A stretch of DNA of 64,000 nucleotides, from assembly GCF_003171675.1 (NCBI RefSeq), contig NZ_QFZQ01000007.1, positions 62,001 through 126,000 of the forward strand, in the 5' to 3' direction. Every line of letters starts with the position of its first letter. Position 1 is the stretch's first letter. The translations under genes and the position numbers were made by a program. Source of the stretch: Reichenbachiella versicolor. GTDB lineage: Bacteria; Bacteroidota; Bacteroidia; Cytophagales; Cyclobacteriaceae. Below are positions 8,613-40,148 of the stretch, in pieces. A model generated the notes under the pieces. That model was not told where the DNA came from, searched no databases, and saw only the letters and a list, made by a program, of their open reading frames with translations.

Positions 8613-9719
8613 ATGAATAAACAACAAACCTTAGATTTGTCAAGGATGAAAAATACAGAATATCACATGTACAAAGGGGGGAAGAAGATGCTCTTCAAAG
8701 TAGTAGCCTTACCATTGGTTGGTAGCATTATTATTGCCTTTGGCTTCTGTCCCAACTGTCTCCAAACCGGACACTATGAAGAGTATATTGTCAATGTCTT
8801 CTTTTCATTTGTGCTATGGAATGCAATAAGCATGGGTAGCTATGTTTTTGTCGTCAAGCCATTGGACAAATATTTACCATGGCTTGAGTACCCTGTAGCA
8901 AGAACAATCATGAGTATAGTCATGAGCATATCTTATGTCACCATCATTCTACTTGTACTTTACTACATATTGTTAGAGGTATACTACGGCTTTGACTTCT
9001 TTCATTTACTCAATAATGGGAAGCTTACTAAACCCATCATCTACTCTACTTTGATTGCAATATTTATTTCTCTCTTCTTTCATGCTAGAGGTTTCTTCTT
9101 TGCATTTAGAGAGGCGGCAGTTCAAAACGAAAAACTTAAAACTGAAAGTATCAACGCTAAGTTTGAGTCTCTCAAAACTCAGGTAAATCCACACTTTTTA
9201 TTCAATAGCTTAAATGCACTGACCATGCTAGTAGAAGATAAAAGCGACGGTGCTGTTGACTTTATTCAGAAACTATCAGGCGTATATCGTTATGTCTTAC
9301 AGCAATCTGACCAAGAATTGGTTTCATTGGTCGAAGAACTAGACTTTGTTCATTCTTATGTTGACTTACACGAAATACGTTTTGGTGAAAACTTCAAAGT
9401 AGATTTTATCCAAAATGAGTCAATCAACGATACTCAAATGATACCTCCGCTTGCTCTGCAGCTATTGATTGAAAACAGTATCAAACACAATGAAATCTCT
9501 TCAGACCGACCATTGAACGTCCAAGTAACTATAGAGAACAATGCAATCATTGTCACTAATAATATCAACCCGATCCGAGTAGAAAAGAGAGATTCTACTC
9601 AACTAGGCTTGAAAAATCTACAACTGCGATACAGTTTCCTGACCAATGAATCTGTTGAAATCAATCAAACCGAAAAGGAATTCTCTGTTAAACTACCAAT
9701 ACTTAATCCAAAATCATGA
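8613..9719 (+). CDS. LytS-type membrane sensor histidine kinase
   Basis: 368 residues. Four hydrophobic segments (~residues 27-160) precede a short coiled coil and the His_kinase domain with the phospho-acceptor motif NPHFLFNSLN (His194), then the ATPase region with IENSIKHNE and LGLKNLQLRY. This is the short, PAS-less LytS/YehU class. It overlaps the LytTR regulator by four bases (ATGA), so the pair is co-translated. Because it sits directly downstream of the TonB receptor operon it may sense envelope or uptake state, but the ligand is unknown. Upstream lies the 40-41-bp array, and no standard promoter is evident in it. Confidence 0.88.
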   Translation: MNKQQTLDLSRMKNTEYHMYKGGKKMLFKVVALPLVGSIIIAFGFCPNCLQTGHYEEYIVNVFFSFVLWNAISMGSYVFVVKPLDKYLPWLEYPVARTIMSIVMSISYVTIILLVLYYILLEVYYGFDFFHLLNNGKLTKPIIYSTLIAIFISLFFHARGFFFAFREAAVQNEKLKTESINAKFESLKTQVNPHFLFNSLNALTMLVEDKSDGAVDFIQKLSGVYRYVLQQSDQELVSLVEELDFVHSYVDLHEIRFGENFKVDFIQNESINDTQMIPPLALQLLIENSIKHNEISSDRPLNVQVTIENNAIIVTNNINPIRVEKRDSTQLGLKNLQLRYSFLTNESVEINQTEKEFSVKLPILNPKS

Positions 9720-10456
9720 ATGCACTCATCGTAGAAGACGAAGTACTAGCAGCCAATAGACTAAAAAGAATGCTAGGTGAGGAAAAAGTAGACGTAATAG
9801 CTACTAAGGATACTGTCCGAAACACTGTTTCTTGGCTAGAAGAAAACCAATCAAGCATAGACCTCGCTCTGTTTGATATTCAACTGGCAGATGGATTGAG
9901 TTTTGAAGTATTCGAAAAAATGAATGTGAAATGCCCTGTAATCTTCACAACGGCGTATGATCAATATGCCATCAAAGCTTTTGAAGTCAATGGAATAGAC
10001 TACCTACTGAAACCGGTAAAAAAGGAAGACTTAGTACGTGCCATCAGTAAAGTAAAACCACAAGCTCCAACACTTAGTCCAGAACTAATCAATAGCCTCA
10101 TCAACACACAAAAAGACTACAAAAAGCAATTCGTCGTCAAAGTCGGTGAGCATATCAAAATGATCAAAACATCTGAAATATCTGCATTCACCAGTGAAGA
10201 CAAGGCCAATTACTTGATCAAAGAAGATGGGTCAAGAGTTTTGATAGATCAAACGCTAGACAAGGTAGAGAGCTTAATTGACCCAAAGGAATATTATAGA
10301 ATCAATCGAAAATTTATTATCAAGATGGATGCTATTCAGGATATTATCGCTTTCTCTGGAAGTAGACTGAAATTGACCTTGACGAATTTTGAATCACAAG
10401 ATCTACTTGTGGCAAGAGAAAGGGTCAAAGACTTTAAAAGCTGGTTGGAGACGTAA
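9716..10456 (+). CDS. LytTR-family response regulator
   Basis: 246 residues: receiver domain (~1-115) with the phospho-acceptor Asp54 in LALFDIQL, acidic pocket VEDE, and TTAYDQYAIKAFEVNGIDYLLKP at the 4-5-5 face; then a LytTR DNA-binding domain (~135-240) with the YRINRKFIIKMDAI strand region. LytTR proteins bind direct repeats with 10-helix-turn geometry upstream of targets. The gene is translationally coupled to the LytS-type kinase. Targets cannot be read from the sequence; the adjacent TonB receptor operon is the obvious candidate. Confidence 0.9.
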   Translation: MNALIVEDEVLAANRLKRMLGEEKVDVIATKDTVRNTVSWLEENQSSIDLALFDIQLADGLSFEVFEKMNVKCPVIFTTAYDQYAIKAFEVNGIDYLLKPVKKEDLVRAISKVKPQAPTLSPELINSLINTQKDYKKQFVVKVGEHIKMIKTSEISAFTSEDKANYLIKEDGSRVLIDQTLDKVESLIDPKEYYRINRKFIIKMDAIQDIIAFSGSRLKLTLTNFESQDLLVARERVKDFKSWLET

Positions 10457-10589
10457 ATCATTAATTCGAGCTTTTCAGTTAATTCCGATAATTCTCGTAA
10501 AGTCCCGATATCTGCACCCATTTTTCATCCAGTTTGCACTATAGTCAAGGCAATTTTGAATCTATTGTTTCCATAGTTCAATACACTCC

Positions 10590-12146
10590 ATGTACAAAGC
10601 TCTACATATATTTATAAGCGTCAGCCTTATCTCAATTATAAGCTGCCAAACAAAATCAGATTCCAATAAAAGATACTTCAGTACATCGGATTCCTCGCTA
10701 GTCCAATACCAAGTTCCAGAATGGTATATAGATGCTAAGCTAGGCTATTGGGTCACATGGGGAATATATTCCGTGCCAGCCTACGCTGGAGACCATGCTG
10801 CTGAATGGTATGGTAGATGGATGTACAATGTCTATGACAGTTCAGGAAATGACAAAGGGTACTCTTTTGACTCAAGAGGTCTGAAGACTGCGATGCATCA
10901 TCGTGAAAAGTATGGTGACCCTTCAGAGTTTGGTTACAAAGACTTCATTCCAATGTTTAAAGCCGAAAAATTCGATGCAGACGAATGGGCAGATTTGTTC
11001 CAACAAGGTGGTGCAAAATTCTTTACGATGATGGCCATGCATCATGATAACTTTTGTCTCTGGGACTCAGAAGAGCAGCACTTCAACTCTGTGAATATGG
11101 GGCCTCAAAAAGACTTTGTTAAAGCCATGAAAGAAGCTACCCAAGCTAGAGGTATGAAATTCGGAGTATCCAATCACTCTGCCTGGAACGGACATTTTTT
11201 TGAGTATAATCATAGAAATGGTTTCGATGGCTTGAAAAATGAAACTCAAAACCTCTATGGAAACGGCACTGTAGACTCAGCAGCGATCTGTCGCTGGTGG
11301 CGTATCACGACAGAGCTCGTCAATAAATATCAGCCAGACTTATATTACTTTGACTGGGGATGGAATATCAAACCATTTGCAGAAGAGCATAGAAGAAACT
11401 TTTTAGAATACTACTACAACAAAGCTATTGACTGGAACCGTGAAAGTTTCCCCTCTCCGGATGTAGTTATAAATTATAAAAACAGAAAAAAACTACCCGC
11501 AGGCTCTGCCGTACTAGATCTAGAACGAGGAGGAATGATAGAAAAAGAAGAACGAGTTTGGCAAAACGATACTTCATTAGGTCTACATAGCTGGAGTTAT
11601 TCACCTGATGAAGAATACCGATCCGCCAATCAAGTGATAGATATGCTAATGGACATCATTTCTAAAAACGGTATTTTATTGCTAAACATTGGTCCAAAAG
11701 CAGACGGCACTATTCCTCTTGAAGCTAAAATCCCAATCTTAGAAATTGGACAATGGTTAAATATAAACGGAGAAGCTGTATATGCTACCAGACCATGGGA
11801 AGTATTTGGTGACGGACCTACTACTCCAAGTGAAAAAATGCACGGTGATCAGGTTGAGTATTCTTCGGCAGATGTTCGATTTACTCAAAACAAGTCTGGA
11901 AATATTCTATACGCTACTTTTCTAGGTTACCCAGGTAAAGAAGCCATTTTAAAACAGTTAAATTCAATCGCGTTTGATATGTCTGAATTAAATAAAATCA
12001 CACTTTTAGGACTGAACCAAACCATTGACTTCACCCAAACTAAAAAGGGGTTGACACTTCATATTCCAACATCAGTTCAAAATTCTTCATTCGCATATTC
12101 ATTCAAATTAGAATTTATTAATAGTATTCCTCAATTGAACGACTAG
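10590..12146 (+). CDS. Alpha-L-fucosidase (GH29) lipoprotein
   Basis: 518 residues. The N-terminus carries a lipoprotein signal with lipobox SIISC, so the mature enzyme is anchored from about Cys19-20. The GH29 barrel is evident from KLGYWVTWGIYSVPAYAG, FFTMMAMHHDNFCLWDS, the nucleophile region LYYFDWGW (Asp255) and LLLNIGPKADGTIP. It releases terminal L-fucose from glycans by a retaining mechanism. Next comes a T9SS-exported beta-helix protein and then a convergent propeller sensor kinase, suggesting a small glycan-use locus for fucosylated (perhaps algal) polymers; that substrate is inference. Confidence 0.9.
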   Translation: MYKALHIFISVSLISIISCQTKSDSNKRYFSTSDSSLVQYQVPEWYIDAKLGYWVTWGIYSVPAYAGDHAAEWYGRWMYNVYDSSGNDKGYSFDSRGLKTAMHHREKYGDPSEFGYKDFIPMFKAEKFDADEWADLFQQGGAKFFTMMAMHHDNFCLWDSEEQHFNSVNMGPQKDFVKAMKEATQARGMKFGVSNHSAWNGHFFEYNHRNGFDGLKNETQNLYGNGTVDSAAICRWWRITTELVNKYQPDLYYFDWGWNIKPFAEEHRRNFLEYYYNKAIDWNRESFPSPDVVINYKNRKKLPAGSAVLDLERGGMIEKEERVWQNDTSLGLHSWSYSPDEEYRSANQVIDMLMDIISKNGILLLNIGPKADGTIPLEAKIPILEIGQWLNINGEAVYATRPWEVFGDGPTTPSEKMHGDQVEYSSADVRFTQNKSGNILYATFLGYPGKEAILKQLNSIAFDMSELNKITLLGLNQTIDFTQTKKGLTLHIPTSVQNSSFAYSFKLEFINSIPQLND

Positions 12147-12259
12147 AGAAAACCTAGTAAAAAGAATCGAAGTTTTCAGGGGGAAAATGGATTGGCTTAT
12201 TCATCTATTTGCTTCTATTATCATTTGAAGTTTATTAGTCAAGCACAAAAGATAAGACT

Positions 12260-14524
12260 ATGAAATTCATAACAGCCCTCGTACTGTCTTTGATAGTATT
12301 CTCTACGCAAGCGTCAGTAGTAGAAGTGTACGTTTCTGTCAATGGTAATGACGATACTGGAGATGGTACCTTAGCAAACCCTTACCGAACTATCCAAAAA
12401 GGTTCCAACATCCTATCCACTGGTGGCACTTGCTATATCATGGAAGGAACATATCGTGAAACAATTACAGTTAAGTACCCTAATCAAACCTTCACCAATT
12501 ACAATAATGAACAAGTAATAGTCACAGGGCTAGATATACTCCCTCCTACCCAATGGACTCTTTATAAAGATGGTATCTATCAAAACTCCTTCAGCGGATT
12601 TGAAACTCAATTCACAGAAGTATTCGCAGAAGGAGCGTACATGCATATGGCTCGCTATCCAAGCAAAACCAACGGAGATATGATGGACGTTCATTCCAAA
12701 GAAGGTGGATATGGGTACTGCATAGCTCACAATGCTATAGCTGATGAACCTACAAGAAAAGTAGAATTCCCTGATATGCCCTCTTTTCCTGCCAATCACT
12801 GGGAAGGAGGCTATTTCAAAGGAATCACAGGTTATACATGGATGAATCCACACGGAATTATCGCTGCCAGCTCTGGCACGCAACTCAGTGTCACCCCCAA
12901 ATTTAAACAGTGGATTCAAAATGAAAAACAAGTCCCCGGACATGGATGGGGCTATATATTTCACCTCAATGCTCTTGATATTGAAGGTGAATGGTACTGG
13001 AAAGATGACAAAATATACTTCAAACCACCATCTCAAGACATCTCAAAAATGATAATCGAAGCCAAAAAACGACAATGGGCATTCAAAACCTCAAAAAACA
13101 ATACGACCATAAAAGGATTGCACATCAAATCAGCAAGCATAGAAATCAAAGCCAACAACTGCCTAGTTGAGAATACAACCATTCGTTACCTATTTCCATA
13201 TTTCTATCGAAAAAGCTACAGTCACACATTCAAAGAACAAGGGGGGCTTTATATCAATGGAAACGATAACACCTACAAAGGGTGCTATGTTGCACACTCC
13301 TGGGGTAATGGGTTTTCCATCGAGTCTGGATCTGGAAATACCATTGAAAATTGCTTCATTGATCATATAGGATGGAATGCACAATTCACTTCCAGTATTC
13401 TAACTCATGCACGCAATACAACTATCACTCGATGTACAATGGGTGCCACTGGCAGGTTTCACATTAGATTTCAAAACAAAACAGACATTACCTATAGTGA
13501 CTTCTACGACTGTATGAAAATGGGACAAGATGCAGGATCTATTGAAGCTACTAGCGGTGGAGCATATGCTACCGTATTGGACATCGATGGTTCTGAAATT
13601 GCATATAATCATATCCATGATAGCAACACTCTTCCAAAACATCGAGAAGTAGAAGATGATAAACAGTTTGTTGTTGCACTATACATTGAAGATGTCGCTA
13701 ATTACACAGCACATCACAACCTCATCTGGAATTTCAAAACTAAACCTCGACACGATGGTGCTTTCGTATACCTTGGTCCTAGAAGAACCGAAATCTACGA
13801 CGTACATTATTACAACAATACAGTCTGGAACTGCGACTGGCGAATAAGAATCTGGAATCGTGACAAAATGGGAAACATTAGAGATACGAAATTCTATAAC
13901 AACCTGATGGACTCTAGAATGATAGACGATGATGGAAATGGAGTAGATACTGATCTAATCCCTAAAATTGAGTTTAAGAATAATATAGATTTTTCAACTG
14001 CGGATGATCACTTTGTAGACAAGGAGTCAGATAAATTCTTCCTCACTTCTACTTCTTCAGCTATAGATGCAGGAATCGAAATTGCAGGTATCACAGATGG
14101 ATATAAAGGAGCTGCACCAGATATCGGAGCATTTGAGCATGGTGTTACTCCTTGGAGTGCTGGATCTGAAGTGACTATACCCGAATTCATTCAAAAAGAA
14201 GATGAAGATTTTGGTACTATTATGTCAACAGATGAAGAAGAAACAGACCCTGTAGAATTATCTATAGAGACTTCTCTCGTGAGCGGAGTTAATATCTATC
14301 CAAACCCTGTTACTGGAAATATTCTCCATGTCCAAAGCGACTATGTTAAAATTGATAAAATTGAAATTCTAGGACTAAATGGAAATGTGATTTTCTCTCA
14401 ATCAACACAAGGTACCTCTTTGGTAATTCCTCTTAACAATTACCTATCCAAAGGAATGTATCTAATGAGAATATCAACTAAAGATTTTACCCAAACATCT
14501 AAGTTGATTCTATCTCATCCATAG
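12260..14524 (+). CDS. Secreted right-handed beta-helix protein with type IX secretion sorting domain
   Basis: 754 residues: signal peptide (~1-18), a DUF1565-like entry (YVSVNGNDDTGDGTLANPYRTIQKG), a long parallel beta-helix (~270-560, repeats such as GLHIKSASIEIKANNCLVEN and NTIENCFIDHIG), a linker, and a C-terminal T9SS type A sorting domain (~680-754, VNIYPNPVTGNILHVQS ... SKGMYLMRIS). Beta-helix proteins of this kind include polysaccharide lyases and other glycan-acting enzymes, but catalytic residues cannot be assigned. The sorting domain shows export to the cell surface or medium. Its neighbours (fucosidase, propeller kinase) support a glycan role. Confidence 0.85.
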   Translation: MKFITALVLSLIVFSTQASVVEVYVSVNGNDDTGDGTLANPYRTIQKGSNILSTGGTCYIMEGTYRETITVKYPNQTFTNYNNEQVIVTGLDILPPTQWTLYKDGIYQNSFSGFETQFTEVFAEGAYMHMARYPSKTNGDMMDVHSKEGGYGYCIAHNAIADEPTRKVEFPDMPSFPANHWEGGYFKGITGYTWMNPHGIIAASSGTQLSVTPKFKQWIQNEKQVPGHGWGYIFHLNALDIEGEWYWKDDKIYFKPPSQDISKMIIEAKKRQWAFKTSKNNTTIKGLHIKSASIEIKANNCLVENTTIRYLFPYFYRKSYSHTFKEQGGLYINGNDNTYKGCYVAHSWGNGFSIESGSGNTIENCFIDHIGWNAQFTSSILTHARNTTITRCTMGATGRFHIRFQNKTDITYSDFYDCMKMGQDAGSIEATSGGAYATVLDIDGSEIAYNHIHDSNTLPKHREVEDDKQFVVALYIEDVANYTAHHNLIWNFKTKPRHDGAFVYLGPRRTEIYDVHYYNNTVWNCDWRIRIWNRDKMGNIRDTKFYNNLMDSRMIDDDGNGVDTDLIPKIEFKNNIDFSTADDHFVDKESDKFFLTSTSSAIDAGIEIAGITDGYKGAAPDIGAFEHGVTPWSAGSEVTIPEFIQKEDEDFGTIMSTDEEETDPVELSIETSLVSGVNIYPNPVTGNILHVQSDYVKIDKIEILGLNGNVIFSQSTQGTSLVIPLNNYLSKGMYLMRISTKDFTQTSKLILSHP

Positions 14525-36671: not shown

Positions 36672-37454
36672 TTAAGTTGGAATGAATTTAGTGAATGGAA
36701 TATTTCCTTCCAAAGTCTTTCTGATAAAGAACTGATTGGCTCCATTTACTAAGTAGGTGGTCACACCCGCTTCAAAACAAATGCGTACAGCCGCTACTTT
36801 GGTAGTCATCCCTCCTGTACCTAGACCGTTATCGATTTCTTCAATATAATTAGACAAAGAATCTAGCTCGGTAATTTCAGGTATCAATTCTGCATCACTG
36901 TATTTCTTAGGGTTCTTATTGAAAAGTCCATCTATATCTGACGCTATAATTAACTTTTCGGCTCCAACTAATGCAGCGACTAATGCTGACAATTTATCAT
37001 TGTCTCCTAGTACTAATTCCTCTACCGCTGTAGTATCATTTTCATTGATAATAGGAAAGTAGCCATGAGCTATCAACTCGTTAATTGTGTTCTTTGTATT
37101 AGCTCTTGATTCAGGGTTTTCAAAATCCTTGTATGTCATCAGACATTGAGCTACTGGTAAACCAAAATCTCCAAAGACCTCATTGAATACTTGCATTAGT
37201 TTTGGCTGACCTATTGCCGATAGCGCCTGTTTAGAGTCAACCATATTTCCCCAGCGATTGATATTTACATATTGCTTAGCCAAAGCGATAGCTCCTGAGG
37301 AAACTATAGTAATATCATAATCATCTCTCAACTCGACAATTTGACGAGCAATGTCTTCTATCTTCCCGCGAGAAATTCTGTCCGTACCAGCTGTCAGTGT
37401 AGAAGTACCTATTTTGATGACCAGACCTGGTCTATGCTTATCTGATTTGACCAT
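36672..37454 (-). CDS. proB: Glutamate 5-kinase, short form without PUA domain
   Basis: 260 residues comprising the amino-acid-kinase domain only; the ~110-residue PUA domain of Escherichia coli ProB is absent, as in other Bacteroidota. It phosphorylates glutamate for proline synthesis. Motifs include LVIKIGTSTLT, TIVSSGAIALA, NENDTTAVEELVLGDNDKLSALVAAL, ASDIDGLFNKNP and GTGGMTTKVAAV. Its start overlaps the proA end by 17 bases, so translation is coupled. Feedback by proline may be weaker without PUA; that is family knowledge and not seen directly. Confidence 0.93.
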   Translation of the reverse strand: MVKSDKHRPGLVIKIGTSTLTAGTDRISRGKIEDIARQIVELRDDYDITIVSSGAIALAKQYVNINRWGNMVDSKQALSAIGQPKLMQVFNEVFGDFGLPVAQCLMTYKDFENPESRANTKNTINELIAHGYFPIINENDTTAVEELVLGDNDKLSALVAALVGAEKLIIASDIDGLFNKNPKKYSDAELIPEITELDSLSNYIEEIDNGLGTGGMTTKVAAVRICFEAGVTTYLVNGANQFFIRKTLEGNIPFTKFIPT

Positions 37455-38628
37455 CTCCTGATATGAACCATTTGTTAGTCACTAATTGACCTAAACCTAC
37501 TGGGCCTCTAAAGTGTAGTTTTTGAGTACTGATTGCTATTTCCGCCCCAAAACCAAATTGTCCTCCATCAGTAAACCTTGAAGAAGCGTTGTGATATACA
37601 GCGGCACAATCCACTTCATTTTGAAATTGTACAGCTGACTCCTTATCTGAAGAAACGATAACTCCTGAATGCCCTCCTGAGTATTGATTAATTTTAACAA
37701 TAGCTTCATCCATCGTATCCACTATTCCAAAGAGAATGTCTGCTGACAAAAACTCTTCTGCATACATCGACTTTTCTTTCATCGAAGTCACATTGTTAAA
37801 CTGAGAAAAATACTCTCCATCTCCATGTATAACCAATTCCATTGCCTGAGCCGCAGTGATCACTTTAGCCATCCATTCATCTAGCCCAGCAATATTCTTA
37901 TTGAACAACACCTTATCTATGGCATTGCAGACACTTAGGCGGCTCTTACCATTCAGAATCAAGTTCAATGCTTTGTCTAGGTCTGCATTTTCATGAACAT
38001 AGATAAAGTTGTTACCTCTACCACTGATAATCAATGGAACCGCTGTATTGGTGCGTATATAGTTAATTAAACCATCTCCTCCTCTAGGGATAATCAAGTC
38101 AAGATTATACGGATTGTCGGCAAGTAATCTTTGGGTCTCCGTTCTATCTATATCTAGATAGGTAACAAAGTCCTCTGCTATTCCATTTTTAGATAAAGCT
38201 TCTTTCCATAGCTTTACTAAGAAAAGATTAGAGTTTCTAGCCTCTTTCCCTCCTTTTAGCATGATCTTATTGCCTGCCTTGAAAGCACTAATGGCTGCCT
38301 CTATCGTCACATCTGGACGAGACTCATAGATAATGAGAATTTTACCGAATGGTACTACACGATTTTCAACCTTCATTCCATTGGGGTGATCGTACTGGCT
38401 CAATACTACGCCTTGAGGATCTTCTAAATCGATCACTTCTTCGACTGCTGATACCATACCTTGGACTTTCTTTTCGTCAACCTTCAATCTGTCGACCAGC
38501 GTCAAGTCTAAATCACCCGCTTTGTCCAAATCAAGTTTGTTTTGTGCTATAATATCATCACTGTTACCAGCGATCAAACTAGCAAGGTCTTTCAAAACCT
38601 GATTCTTCTGTTCTGTGGTCAAAATCAT
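37438..38628 (-). CDS. proA: Gamma-glutamyl phosphate reductase
   Basis: 396 residues. It reduces gamma-glutamyl phosphate to glutamate semialdehyde with NADPH. Visible are PFGKILIIYESRPDVTIEAA, KGGKEARNSN, LDLIIPRGGDGLINYI, the catalytic cysteine region SRLSVCNAIDKVL (Cys ~235), HASS-like YHNASSRFTDGGQFGFGAEIAIST and RGPVGLGQLVTNKW. It precedes proB (order proA-proB, reversed compared with Escherichia coli). A -7 box (TACCTTTG, complement of 38661-38668) sits 33 bases upstream of the ATG, and the 20-21-bp array begins less than 100 bases upstream. Confidence 0.95.
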   Translation of the reverse strand: MILTTEQKNQVLKDLASLIAGNSDDIIAQNKLDLDKAGDLDLTLVDRLKVDEKKVQGMVSAVEEVIDLEDPQGVVLSQYDHPNGMKVENRVVPFGKILIIYESRPDVTIEAAISAFKAGNKIMLKGGKEARNSNLFLVKLWKEALSKNGIAEDFVTYLDIDRTETQRLLADNPYNLDLIIPRGGDGLINYIRTNTAVPLIISGRGNNFIYVHENADLDKALNLILNGKSRLSVCNAIDKVLFNKNIAGLDEWMAKVITAAQAMELVIHGDGEYFSQFNNVTSMKEKSMYAEEFLSADILFGIVDTMDEAIVKINQYSGGHSGVIVSSDKESAVQFQNEVDCAAVYHNASSRFTDGGQFGFGAEIAISTQKLHFRGPVGLGQLVTNKWFISGDGQIR

Positions 38629-38660
38629 ATAACTATTGTATTTCTTTTAAAAGAAGTCTG

Positions 38661-38668
38661 CAAAGGTA
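38661..38668 (-). promoter_or_regulatory. -7 box of proAB promoter
   Basis: Minus strand TACCTTTG, a full TAnnTTTG match. Between it and the proA ATG the leader contains a small palindrome CTTCTTTTAAAAGAAG-like (38643-38656). The -33 element is weak. Confidence 0.55.
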
Positions 38669-38721
38669 AAACATAGATCGGAACATCTAATGACTGATAT
38701 TCTGTGCTATTGATGATTTCT

Positions 38722-39045
38722 ACCTAGAATAAATCATCAATAGGATGGTAGAATTGATTTTTTAGTGGAATAATTCATTCCTGACATGGTAGAACCGCCC
38801 CCTGGTACGGTAGAACTCATTCTGGCGTGGTAGAATTCATTGTCATCATGGTAGAACTTGTTCTTGGGTGGAATATGTTATTGTTCACACGGTAGAACCC
38901 ATTAATATACTAGTAGAATCGATTCCTCACATGGTAGATATGATTCTTGTACGGAATAGATCAGTAGTTAAATGGTAGGGTTGATTCCTGATATGGTAGA
39001 ACTAACTATTTATTTGTATAAAAAGTCATTACCTCAGTAGAAACC
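38722..39045. repeat. Degenerate tandem array with 20-21-bp period
   Basis: The core GGTAGAA(C/T)nnATTC recurs in phase: first bases of the GG at 38747, 38767, 38788, 38809, 38829, 38850, 38870, 38891, 38912, 38933, 38953, 38974 and 38995, with weaker copies at about 38723, 39016 and 39036. Spacings are strictly 20 or 21 (mean 20.7). Individual units vary at many positions; some read GGAATA. The full consensus is near TGGTAGAAyTnATTCyTgAc. There are no spacers, so it is not CRISPR; 20-base units would break any reading frame, so it is not coding. The period equals about two helical turns, placing every core on the same face. It fills the gap between proA and the M42 peptidase gene. Confidence 0.85.
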
Positions 39046-39077
39046 AACCCTATCAAGTTATTAGGATATCTAGCTAC

Positions 39078-40148
39078 CTATTTTATGTATCTAAAATCAT
39101 GTCCTGACTTTAATTGAACTAAAAAGTCATAAATCAAACTAATGACCCCTTCAATATCATCGTAGTGTGCTGTTTCTACAGTAGTATGCATGTATTTAAG
39201 AGGTAAAGAAATCAAAGCTGACGCTACACCGTCTCCAGAATATGCAAATGCGTCAGTATCTGTCCCTGTAGATCGCGAAGTGGCAGCTCTTTGATATGAA
39301 TTCTCTGTAGTATCGGCCACAACAATTAACATGTTCAGTAAATTATTTTGAACAGCTGGGCCGAAAGTCAATACTGGGCCTTTTCCTGCTTTCTGATCTC
39401 CACTTTTCTTTTTGTCGTACATTGGTGAATGTGTATCATGACAAACGTCTGTAACGATAGCCACGTCAGGTTTTATTCTAGCTGCCATCATCTCTGCTCC
39501 TCTCAGCCCTATTTCTTCCTGAACTGCATTGACCACATACAATCCAAAAGGCAACTCAACTTCATTTTCTTTCAGTCGTCTTGCCACCTCTGCGATCATA
39601 AATCCTCCTATTCTATTGTCTAACGCTCTTCCACAAAGAAACTTTTCGTTCAGATCCATCAACTCGTCATCAAAGGTGATAACGTTCCCTACTTTAATTC
39701 CTAATTCTGTTACTTCATCTTTAGACTCACACCCTACATCAATAAAAATATTGTCTAATGATGGAGACTTTTCGTTATTCGCTTTTCTGACATGAATGGC
39801 TGGCCAACCGAAAACTCCTTTAACAATACCTTTGTCGGTAAATATATTGACTCGTTTAGATGGTGCTATTTGGTGGTCTGATCCACCATTTCTGATCACG
39901 TATATGTAGCCACTATCATCTATATAATTGACAAACCACGAGATTTCATCTGCATGAGCTTCAATTACCACTTTATATTCTGCCTTTGGGTTGATCACTG
40001 CCGCCGCCGAACCATAGATGTCGGTGATATACTCGTCAGAGTATTGTTTCATATAATCCAACCAAATTTGTTGCCCACCAGATTCAAACCCTGTTGGTGA
40101 TGGGTTATTGAGGTATTCATACAAAAAGTCTTTACTCTGCTTATCCAT
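39078..40148 (-). CDS. M42-family metallopeptidase (glutamyl aminopeptidase/cellulase M type)
   Basis: 356 residues, typical length. A cytoplasmic dinuclear-metal aminopeptidase, usually forming tetrahedral dodecamers that trim peptides. Metal ligands and catalytic residues are visible: EAHADEISW (His), CGRALDNRIGG (bridging Asp), VQEEIGLRGAEM (catalytic and metal Glu), VTDVCHDTHSP (Asp) and YMHTTVETAHYDDIEG (His). A promoter box (TATCTTTG) is at 40183-40190. The gene ends just before the 20-21-bp array. Confidence 0.92.
   Translation of the reverse strand: MDKQSKDFLYEYLNNPSPTGFESGGQQIWLDYMKQYSDEYITDIYGSAAAVINPKAEYKVVIEAHADEISWFVNYIDDSGYIYVIRNGGSDHQIAPSKRVNIFTDKGIVKGVFGWPAIHVRKANNEKSPSLDNIFIDVGCESKDEVTELGIKVGNVITFDDELMDLNEKFLCGRALDNRIGGFMIAEVARRLKENEVELPFGLYVVNAVQEEIGLRGAEMMAARIKPDVAIVTDVCHDTHSPMYDKKKSGDQKAGKGPVLTFGPAVQNNLLNMLIVVADTTENSYQRAATSRSTGTDTDAFAYSGDGVASALISLPLKYMHTTVETAHYDDIEGVISLIYDFLVQLKSGHDFRYIK

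Follow-up and report, generated by a model that had tools for sequence, protein, structure and literature searches.

Between proA and an M42-type peptidase gene, the window (the whole stretch of 64,000 nucleotides that was analysed) carries an array of abutting 20-21-bp units, and we give about even chances to the reading that this is one of the trans ("orphan") copies of the DNA platform in a two-part module, formed by a gene of the PQLLE family and the array upstream of it, which is predicted to be bound by protein. Arrays of this kind keep a period near 20.9 bp, or multiples of it, whatever their letters; many PQLLE genes have one upstream, and genes of other kinds seldom lie next to one. 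The features of the locus are the following; the names of the two flanking genes are those of the first-pass annotation.

38726..39016, + strand: orphan phased array, 14 units of 20-21 bp; strand set by GGTAGAA/GGAATAA
38747..38994, + strand: array core, 12 units used in model R1
38717..38725, - strand: inverted half-site TTTCTACCT abutting the first unit, identified by reading
38661..38668, - strand: TACCTTTG, candidate proA promoter box, which fits TAnnTTTG, the consensus of the Bacteroidota -7 box; the locus has no more matches to this motif than chance would give
37438..38628, - strand: proA, 396 aa; start codon ~98 bp from the array
39078..40148, - strand: M42-type peptidase gene, 356 aa; stop ~62 bp from the array

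Thirteen units at 38747-39016, between the start of proA (38628) and the stop of the peptidase gene (39078), follow each other in steps of 20 or 21 bp with a mean of 20.67 (unit starts at 38747, 38767, 38788, 38809, 38829, 38850, 38870, 38891, 38912, 38933, 38953, 38974 and 38995), and an extra, weaker unit (AGAATAA) is found at 38726. The first-pass annotation had counted about 15 units, with weaker ones past both ends; the array is present where it was placed, but since the repeat fades beyond 39016 it is counted here as 14 units, the one at 38726 being the only weaker unit recovered. Similarly, the spacing ascribed to a GGTAGAA core holds over the 13 units, but the exact heptamer is found in only 7 of them; three (38767, 38870 and 38953) carry GGAATA, a second flavour that is a regular alternative within the array family, and the others are near variants. 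The self-alignment score of the intergenic region was 18 at lag 20/21 and 31 at lags 40-42, and shuffled sequences reached maxima of 12 and 13, respectively (0/1000 shuffles attained the observed score in either case), so the autocorrelation proposed earlier as a check came out in favour of the repeat; shuffles of the whole window (n = 10) gave maxima of 12 and 14, and the match fraction of the array peaked at lags 62, 41, 21, 42 and 20. The array contains no ORF of at least 50 aa, in agreement with the earlier remark that no reading frame survives. Tandem Repeats Finder at score 30 gave no row at the array, and the Rfam matches over 38000-39700 were all below the gathering score, with no family reached. 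A CRISPR array was discarded, given that the units abut and vary throughout, with no identical repeats separated by unique spacers and no Rfam family.

Pattern and model searches revealed six arrays of the window unit type in the same genome (5.25 Mb, 22 contigs), the copy number per genome being one of the checks that the first-pass annotation had asked for. Their approximate positions are:

C2:1051278-1051515, orphan
C4:18395-18580, orphan
C11:254-456, orphan
C16:261815-262000, orphan
C18:507657-507843, PQLLE-linked
C20, the window array, orphan

None of the six overlaps a gene in the ORF lists read, and by reading an inverted half-site directly precedes the first unit in all of them; in the other five it is TATTCCT (four) or TATTCTT (one). 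The link of unit type between the window and C18 came first from an exact pattern match; model R1 finds both arrays, and it was built from both among others. A comparison unit by unit was carried out with five arrays (C18 plus the other four orphans), all but that of the window, which is longer and less regular and could not be brought into a common register. These five arrays share the lengths of their first eight units (21,21,20,21,21,21,21,20), and units of the same index in different loci are more alike (identity 0.706) than units at different indices (0.621; 0/2000 permutations reach the observed value), from which it follows that the five arrays descend from one ancestral array. Identity between the units of a single array is 0.626, and an ordinary minisatellite was rejected because the units resemble those of the same index elsewhere more than those of their own array. 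The flavour (TAG or AAT at positions 3-5) is also kept by index (0.761 vs 0.449), a pattern that would arise if arrays that lack their own gene are still under constraint. Identity was 0.866 at the core positions and 0.432 at the tail positions 17-20, a contrast that exists partly by construction, since the column counts were already known when the core columns were picked.

The C18 array ends 83 bp upstream of a gene of 217 aa (L050:7427-8080) whose product matches NCBIfam NF052641, "PQLLE family protein" (E 2e-73), and which would represent the protein half of the proposed module; the output for this entry gives no function, and Pfam returned no family at a meaningful E-value for the protein. 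The genome carries four clear PQLLE genes (in C18, C13, C19 and C2) and a remote homologue at C16; an array is found upstream of each of the five, and the five differ in unit sequence. No PQLLE ORF is present in the 64-kb window, so that from the proposed module the window array has the phased 20-21-bp units and the unit type common to C18, and the adjoining gene is absent. The array preceding the remote homologue (L156:8861-9169) is almost uniform, with 42-bp repeats (TGGTTGATCACATGTAATGTC/TGGTTGATGAGATGTAACGTC) and a period of 21, and it is crossed by an open frame of 118 aa.

The association between arrays and PQLLE genes was evaluated with 94 distinct genes drawn from part of the matches listed, 92 of them with at least 300 bp upstream; protein duplicates and partial profile matches, including the remote homologues L156 and L172 (both with arrays), were dropped before counting. 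A self-alignment score of at least 15 at lags 20/21 or 40-43 was observed in 50/92 upstream and 3/90 downstream regions, and in 0/92 sets of five shuffles. In an unbiased scan of periods from 10 to 130 bp, 54/92 upstream regions scored at least 19; none of 92 shuffles exceeded 17, and 5/92 downstream regions reached 19, with periods of 15, 16, 22, 42 and 126. The best period was within 1.5 bp of a multiple of 20.9 bp in 52 of these 54 strong arrays (15% expected) and near an odd half multiple in 0/54, which indicates that the quantum of the arrays is two helical turns. Given that the letters of these arrays differ, this bears out the earlier proposal of helical phasing by two turns rather than recent duplication. 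The evidence on the period comes from the lag and period scans; the unit cutter was left aside, since it allowed only 19-22 bp and the lengths derived from it are no independent proof. The PQLLE upstream arrays comprise about 8-17 units, each of two helical turns, and for 52 of them the median length was 218 bp, and the start codon lay at a median of 150 bp (range 18-412) from the array. Upstream of 38/92 PQLLE genes there was no array at score 19; by eye, these belong mostly to a divergent multi-copy clade.

When the same long loci were examined for arrays within 700 bp, these were found for 34/42 PQLLE genes and 26/401 other genes (Fisher 5.6e-27). Kinship among the sequences lowers the independence of this and the preceding counts, a concern that the differing letters lessen. 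Judged by coordinates, nine of the 26 share the array with a PQLLE gene, seven are in loci fetched for an orphan array, and 10/401 have an array of their own (in L160, L164, L170 and L188), so arrays also occur apart from PQLLE. In a test at the phylum level, done after the rule had been fixed, PQLLE was detected at E <= 1e-15 in 6/395 genomes, five of them outside the family, with 8 genes; for these outside-family genes the best upstream period was at a multiple of ~21 bp in 8/8, one of which is ambiguous (L254, AT-rich), and another (L252, GC-rich, period 21) might be coding. Protein and array similarity correlate weakly (rho 0.14; 23/2000 permutations), which may reflect joint inheritance, and two pairs of PQLLE proteins that are 86-90% identical have rather different arrays.

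The divergent clade, mostly of basic proteins, is present in G019, G119, G161, G099, G032 and G126 with at least seven copies per genome (10 matches in G019), and the periods detected upstream are of 41-42 or 84 bp, or none. Two PQLLE genes of G126 (L213 and L214, ~18 kb apart in its contig C24) are 99% alike and have near-identical arrays with a period of 41-42 bp, which looks like a recent duplication of gene plus array; the L213 array shows the palindrome AGAAGGACGTCCTTCT.

PQLLE is found in 40/390 genomes of the family at E <= 1e-8 (36 over the curated cut-off), and the number of genes in the relatives goes from 0 to 10. A match to the GGTAG pattern also occurs in 40/390 genomes; among the matches listed, 7 genomes were judged by reading to have true arrays, and the others looked like simple repeats or chance. 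All 7 fall within the 40 PQLLE-positive genomes (7e-8); three are of one genus and three of another, and G227 has only a remote PQLLE homologue. Some unit types hold GGTAG and others are without it, the units being GGTAGCTG in G007, G014 and G191, GGGAGATG in G005, GCGTTTTTGTC in G001 and GGTACAATGCGATTCC in G306; in three genomes (that of the window, G191 and G014) a unit type is common to PQLLE-linked and orphan arrays. The congeners without PQLLE (G002, G003, G004 and G006) showed no array in the R1 and GGTAG-pattern searches, and neither search found one in G001, whose PQLLE genes have arrays of other letters. The search of relatives advised by the first-pass annotation was thus fruitful in part: arrays of related letters exist in 2/7 congeners (G005 and G007), but R1, which is based on the window unit type, finds nothing in congeners because the letters differ between species. 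In 245 family genomes R1 gave one further match, in G252, which is a true array; in 59 genomes (that of the window included) its weak matches in L039-L045 hold no array on reading, a collection of genome contigs that may leave out the window's own genome gave one Sporomusa match with no array on reading, and viral contigs gave no match. No relative of PQLLE was found in plasmids, phages or viral contigs.

Between close relatives, the conservation of the arrays appears mixed. In the orthologue pair G235/G287, 219/225 of the array is kept, together with 172/181 of the leader and 589/651 of the CDS; over its first two thirds the CDS is conserved at third positions (95%) no less than the array, and one of the genomes is missing a portion of the upstream array. 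In the pair G108/G156 the 182 bp upstream are 95.1% identical, the CDS 96.6% and the downstream region 85.7%, and this pair gives no sign of stronger conservation of the array than of the gene.

Eleven mapped arrays have no PQLLE gene in the fetched surroundings (five in the genome of the window, two in G191, two in G014, one in G005 and one in G227), and a few further orphans were seen in L160, L164 and L185. Their neighbours are convergent at C4 and at the two G014 orphans (G014a and G014b), and tandem or divergent elsewhere, one side being the contig end at C11. Pfam on twenty neighbour proteins, most of them beside orphans other than those of C11, C20 and G005, showed no common function. 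PADLOC and PHROGs gave weak matches only, the best to a TPR model (4e-4, 17.8 bits). The mixed gene orientations and the lack of a common neighbour function make a common promoter role for the orphans unlikely. At the junction that has the C4 orphan, G001 and G003 (2/2) lack a 1.6-kb segment which comprises the orphan and a 401-aa gene; upstream of relA, where the genome of the window has the C11 array beyond a tRNA-Leu gene, no array is found in 7/7 congeners; and the window array joins the M42 gene to proA, which is downstream of M42 in 0/7 congeners. These absences would fit the gain of arrays, or rearrangements near them, within the genus.

The AlphaFold model of the C18 PQLLE protein (41 sequences; pLDDT 97, pTM 0.85) is all-helical and consists of two halves in tandem, each comprising helices of 17, 8 and 56 residues and a short cap, so that a duplicated long-helix fold is predicted with confidence. 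Searches with this model gave no fold match at E <= 0.001, the matches being mostly coiled coils, and the PDB sequence search gave nothing below 0.011; neither a known DNA-binding fold nor a transposase family or fold was matched. The model of the remote homologue L156 shows a similar helix layout with lower confidence (pLDDT 87, pTM 0.57), and its alignment contains PQLLE proteins. For 43 proteins the pI goes from 4.7 to 9.6 (median 5.9), and many are acidic. A 56-residue helix measures ~84 angstroms and two DNA turns ~71 angstroms; as a speculation, a match between protein length and DNA step is conceivable. PQLLE was not found in 5.39 million open papers, a set without subscription papers and preprints, and neither the NF052641 output nor the literature searched mentions arrays or orphan arrays. 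The first-pass annotation knew of no described element of this form, and our few and narrow literature searches likewise retrieved no earlier description of the array element; the protein family is already named in NCBIfam.

In the mechanism that we propose, PQLLE, or a complex of which it is part, would bind cooperatively to the cores of the units, all on one face of the DNA. Through the array next to its gene PQLLE would act on its own promoter region, and the orphan arrays would be distant sites loaded by the same paralogue. Since the paralogues of one genome have different units, the modules could operate in parallel with no crosstalk. The period, the paralogue-specific letters and the linkage favour this putative one-face binding, and a simple repressor would be at odds with the acidic charge of many members and with the absence of a known DNA-binding fold in the predicted structure. 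Against the module reading stand also the 38/92 PQLLE genes with no array at score 19, the 10/401 genes of other kinds that have an array of their own, the regular array of G227, which has no cognate gene, and the orphan positions, which follow no promoter rule. More tentatively, with chances that we place somewhat short of even, these elements could constitute a new chromosomal DNA-protein system in which independent PQLLE paralogues load as ordered, two-turn-phased assemblies on their own and trans arrays and organise or mark chromosome sites, much as plasmid partition complexes do, without a known NTPase partner. In ParR-parC, as described in the part of PMC9426499 devoted to it, direct repeats precede the operon, are family-specific and are not cross-recognised, and ParR of pSK41 binds 20-bp repeats. 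The layout of the PQLLE arrays is somewhat similar, with direct repeats before the gene that differ between paralogues; in contrast, ParR is typically a ribbon-helix-helix protein that works with ParM, and the PQLLE model is without this fold. ParR-parC resides on plasmids, whereas no PQLLE relative was found in the plasmid collection.

The main rival is a selfish element of the REP/RAYT type, in which the array would be what spreads, with PQLLE as the factor for its mobilisation or maintenance and the window array as a non-autonomous copy; we consider it unlikely, and it could be combined with binding by PQLLE. In the portions of PMC3116915 and PMC3733652 that deal with REPtrons (REPINs plus RAYT), each gene has its own repeat beside it, with copies in intergenic places of the same genome, and the PQLLE genes, with an adjoining paralogue-specific repeat and dispersed intergenic copies, follow a somewhat similar genome logic. 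The descent of five arrays from one ancestor unit by unit, the congeners without the array upstream of relA (7/7), without proA after M42 (7/7) and without the C4 array at its junction (2/2), the absence there of the whole 1.6-kb segment with its 401-aa gene, and the variable number of PQLLE genes are also as such an element would leave them. However, neither a transposase family nor a transposase fold matches PQLLE, inspection by eye showed no target duplication and no terminal repeat, no PQLLE relative was found among plasmids, phages and viral contigs, and the tails of the arrays in the window's genome are far diverged, which argues against a recent burst. REPs are hairpins tagged GTAG, single or in inverted pairs, whereas the PQLLE arrays are formed by 8-17 head-to-tail, helically phased units with no general hairpin; RAYT is a tyrosine (HUH) transposase, whereas PQLLE is all-helical and of no known enzyme class. 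Membership among REPtrons was rejected, as the PQLLE protein encoded beside the C18 array has no Pfam family and an all-helical model, unlike a tyrosine transposase, and palindromic hairpin units tagged GTAG are not seen (GGTAG in only some unit types, no fold signal in the arrays of this genome); the defining features of both ParR-parC and REPtrons fail for the PQLLE arrays. Binding of the arrays by a host protein other than PQLLE, or an effect through intrinsic curvature, with PQLLE as only one of the adjoining genes, seems to us quite improbable: the acidic charge of many PQLLE proteins, the 38/92 PQLLE genes without a strong array, the arrays of 10 genes of other kinds, that of G227, which has no cognate gene, and the T-rich tracts seen by eye in many units would agree with it, but it leaves aside the strong association with one gene family, and a single sequence-specific host protein would not fit unit letters that differ between the paralogues of one genome.

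An RNA element, whose transcribed repeats would bind and restrain PQLLE like the repeat antitoxin of a type III toxin-antitoxin system, has a very small probability in our estimation. The toxin of ToxIN is of a size similar to that of PQLLE. The passages of PMC8860590 on ToxIN describe RNA pseudoknot repeats and an endoribonuclease toxin. The likeness lies in a repeat array before a gene of ~215 aa, with repeats that belong to the gene they stand with and are different for different paralogues; besides, 10/52 PQLLE-linked arrays on each strand fold with z below -2. Nevertheless, PQLLE is all-helical and has no ToxN-type endoribonuclease family or fold match, some arrays have no gene, nothing in RNA would call for a period of two DNA turns, the mean z values of the 52 arrays (-1.09 and -0.97) are alike on both strands, and the six arrays of the window's genome gave z values from -1.34 to +0.85 on both strands, that is, no fold signal in a folding that covers structures other than pseudoknots. 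A local operator of proAB, which the first-pass annotation had put forward, is weakened to the point of being hardly credible: the array ends ~98 bp from the proA start, comparable to the 83 bp of the C18 module, and is upstream of the TACCTTTG box, a motif at chance level; yet the M42-proA neighbourhood is absent in 7/7 congeners and other orphans sit between convergent genes.

If the PQLLE module exists as proposed, a named protein family without an assigned function gains a candidate DNA partner and a testable mechanism. A helical period that is held while the letters turn over is unusually direct evidence, at the level of sequence, for assembly on one face of the DNA, and paralogues of one genome with differing unit types would provide natural DNA-protein pairs that are orthogonal to each other. 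With the orphan arrays, the question of a trans function can be tested directly.

The surroundings of some arrays deserve mention in their own right. The G227 orphan (L092:7597-7817, in its contig C20) is a very regular GGTAGCT array (GGTAGCTGTCGTTCC/GGTAGCTACGATTCC) that adjoins a sigma-70 family gene and a DinB-family gene; the remote PQLLE homologue of this genome has an array of another type. In G134, an array of the TTACAATTG type (L164:2983-3218) immediately precedes a gene for a DNA methylase that has a T5orf172 domain; a PQLLE gene ~1.6 kb away showed no array in its own upstream region. Beside the C2 orphan, reading revealed a tandem duplication of a thioredoxin-like gene together with a gene for a protein of ~395 aa (L046:7917-8543, 8866-9972 and 10343-11017, 11260-12444).
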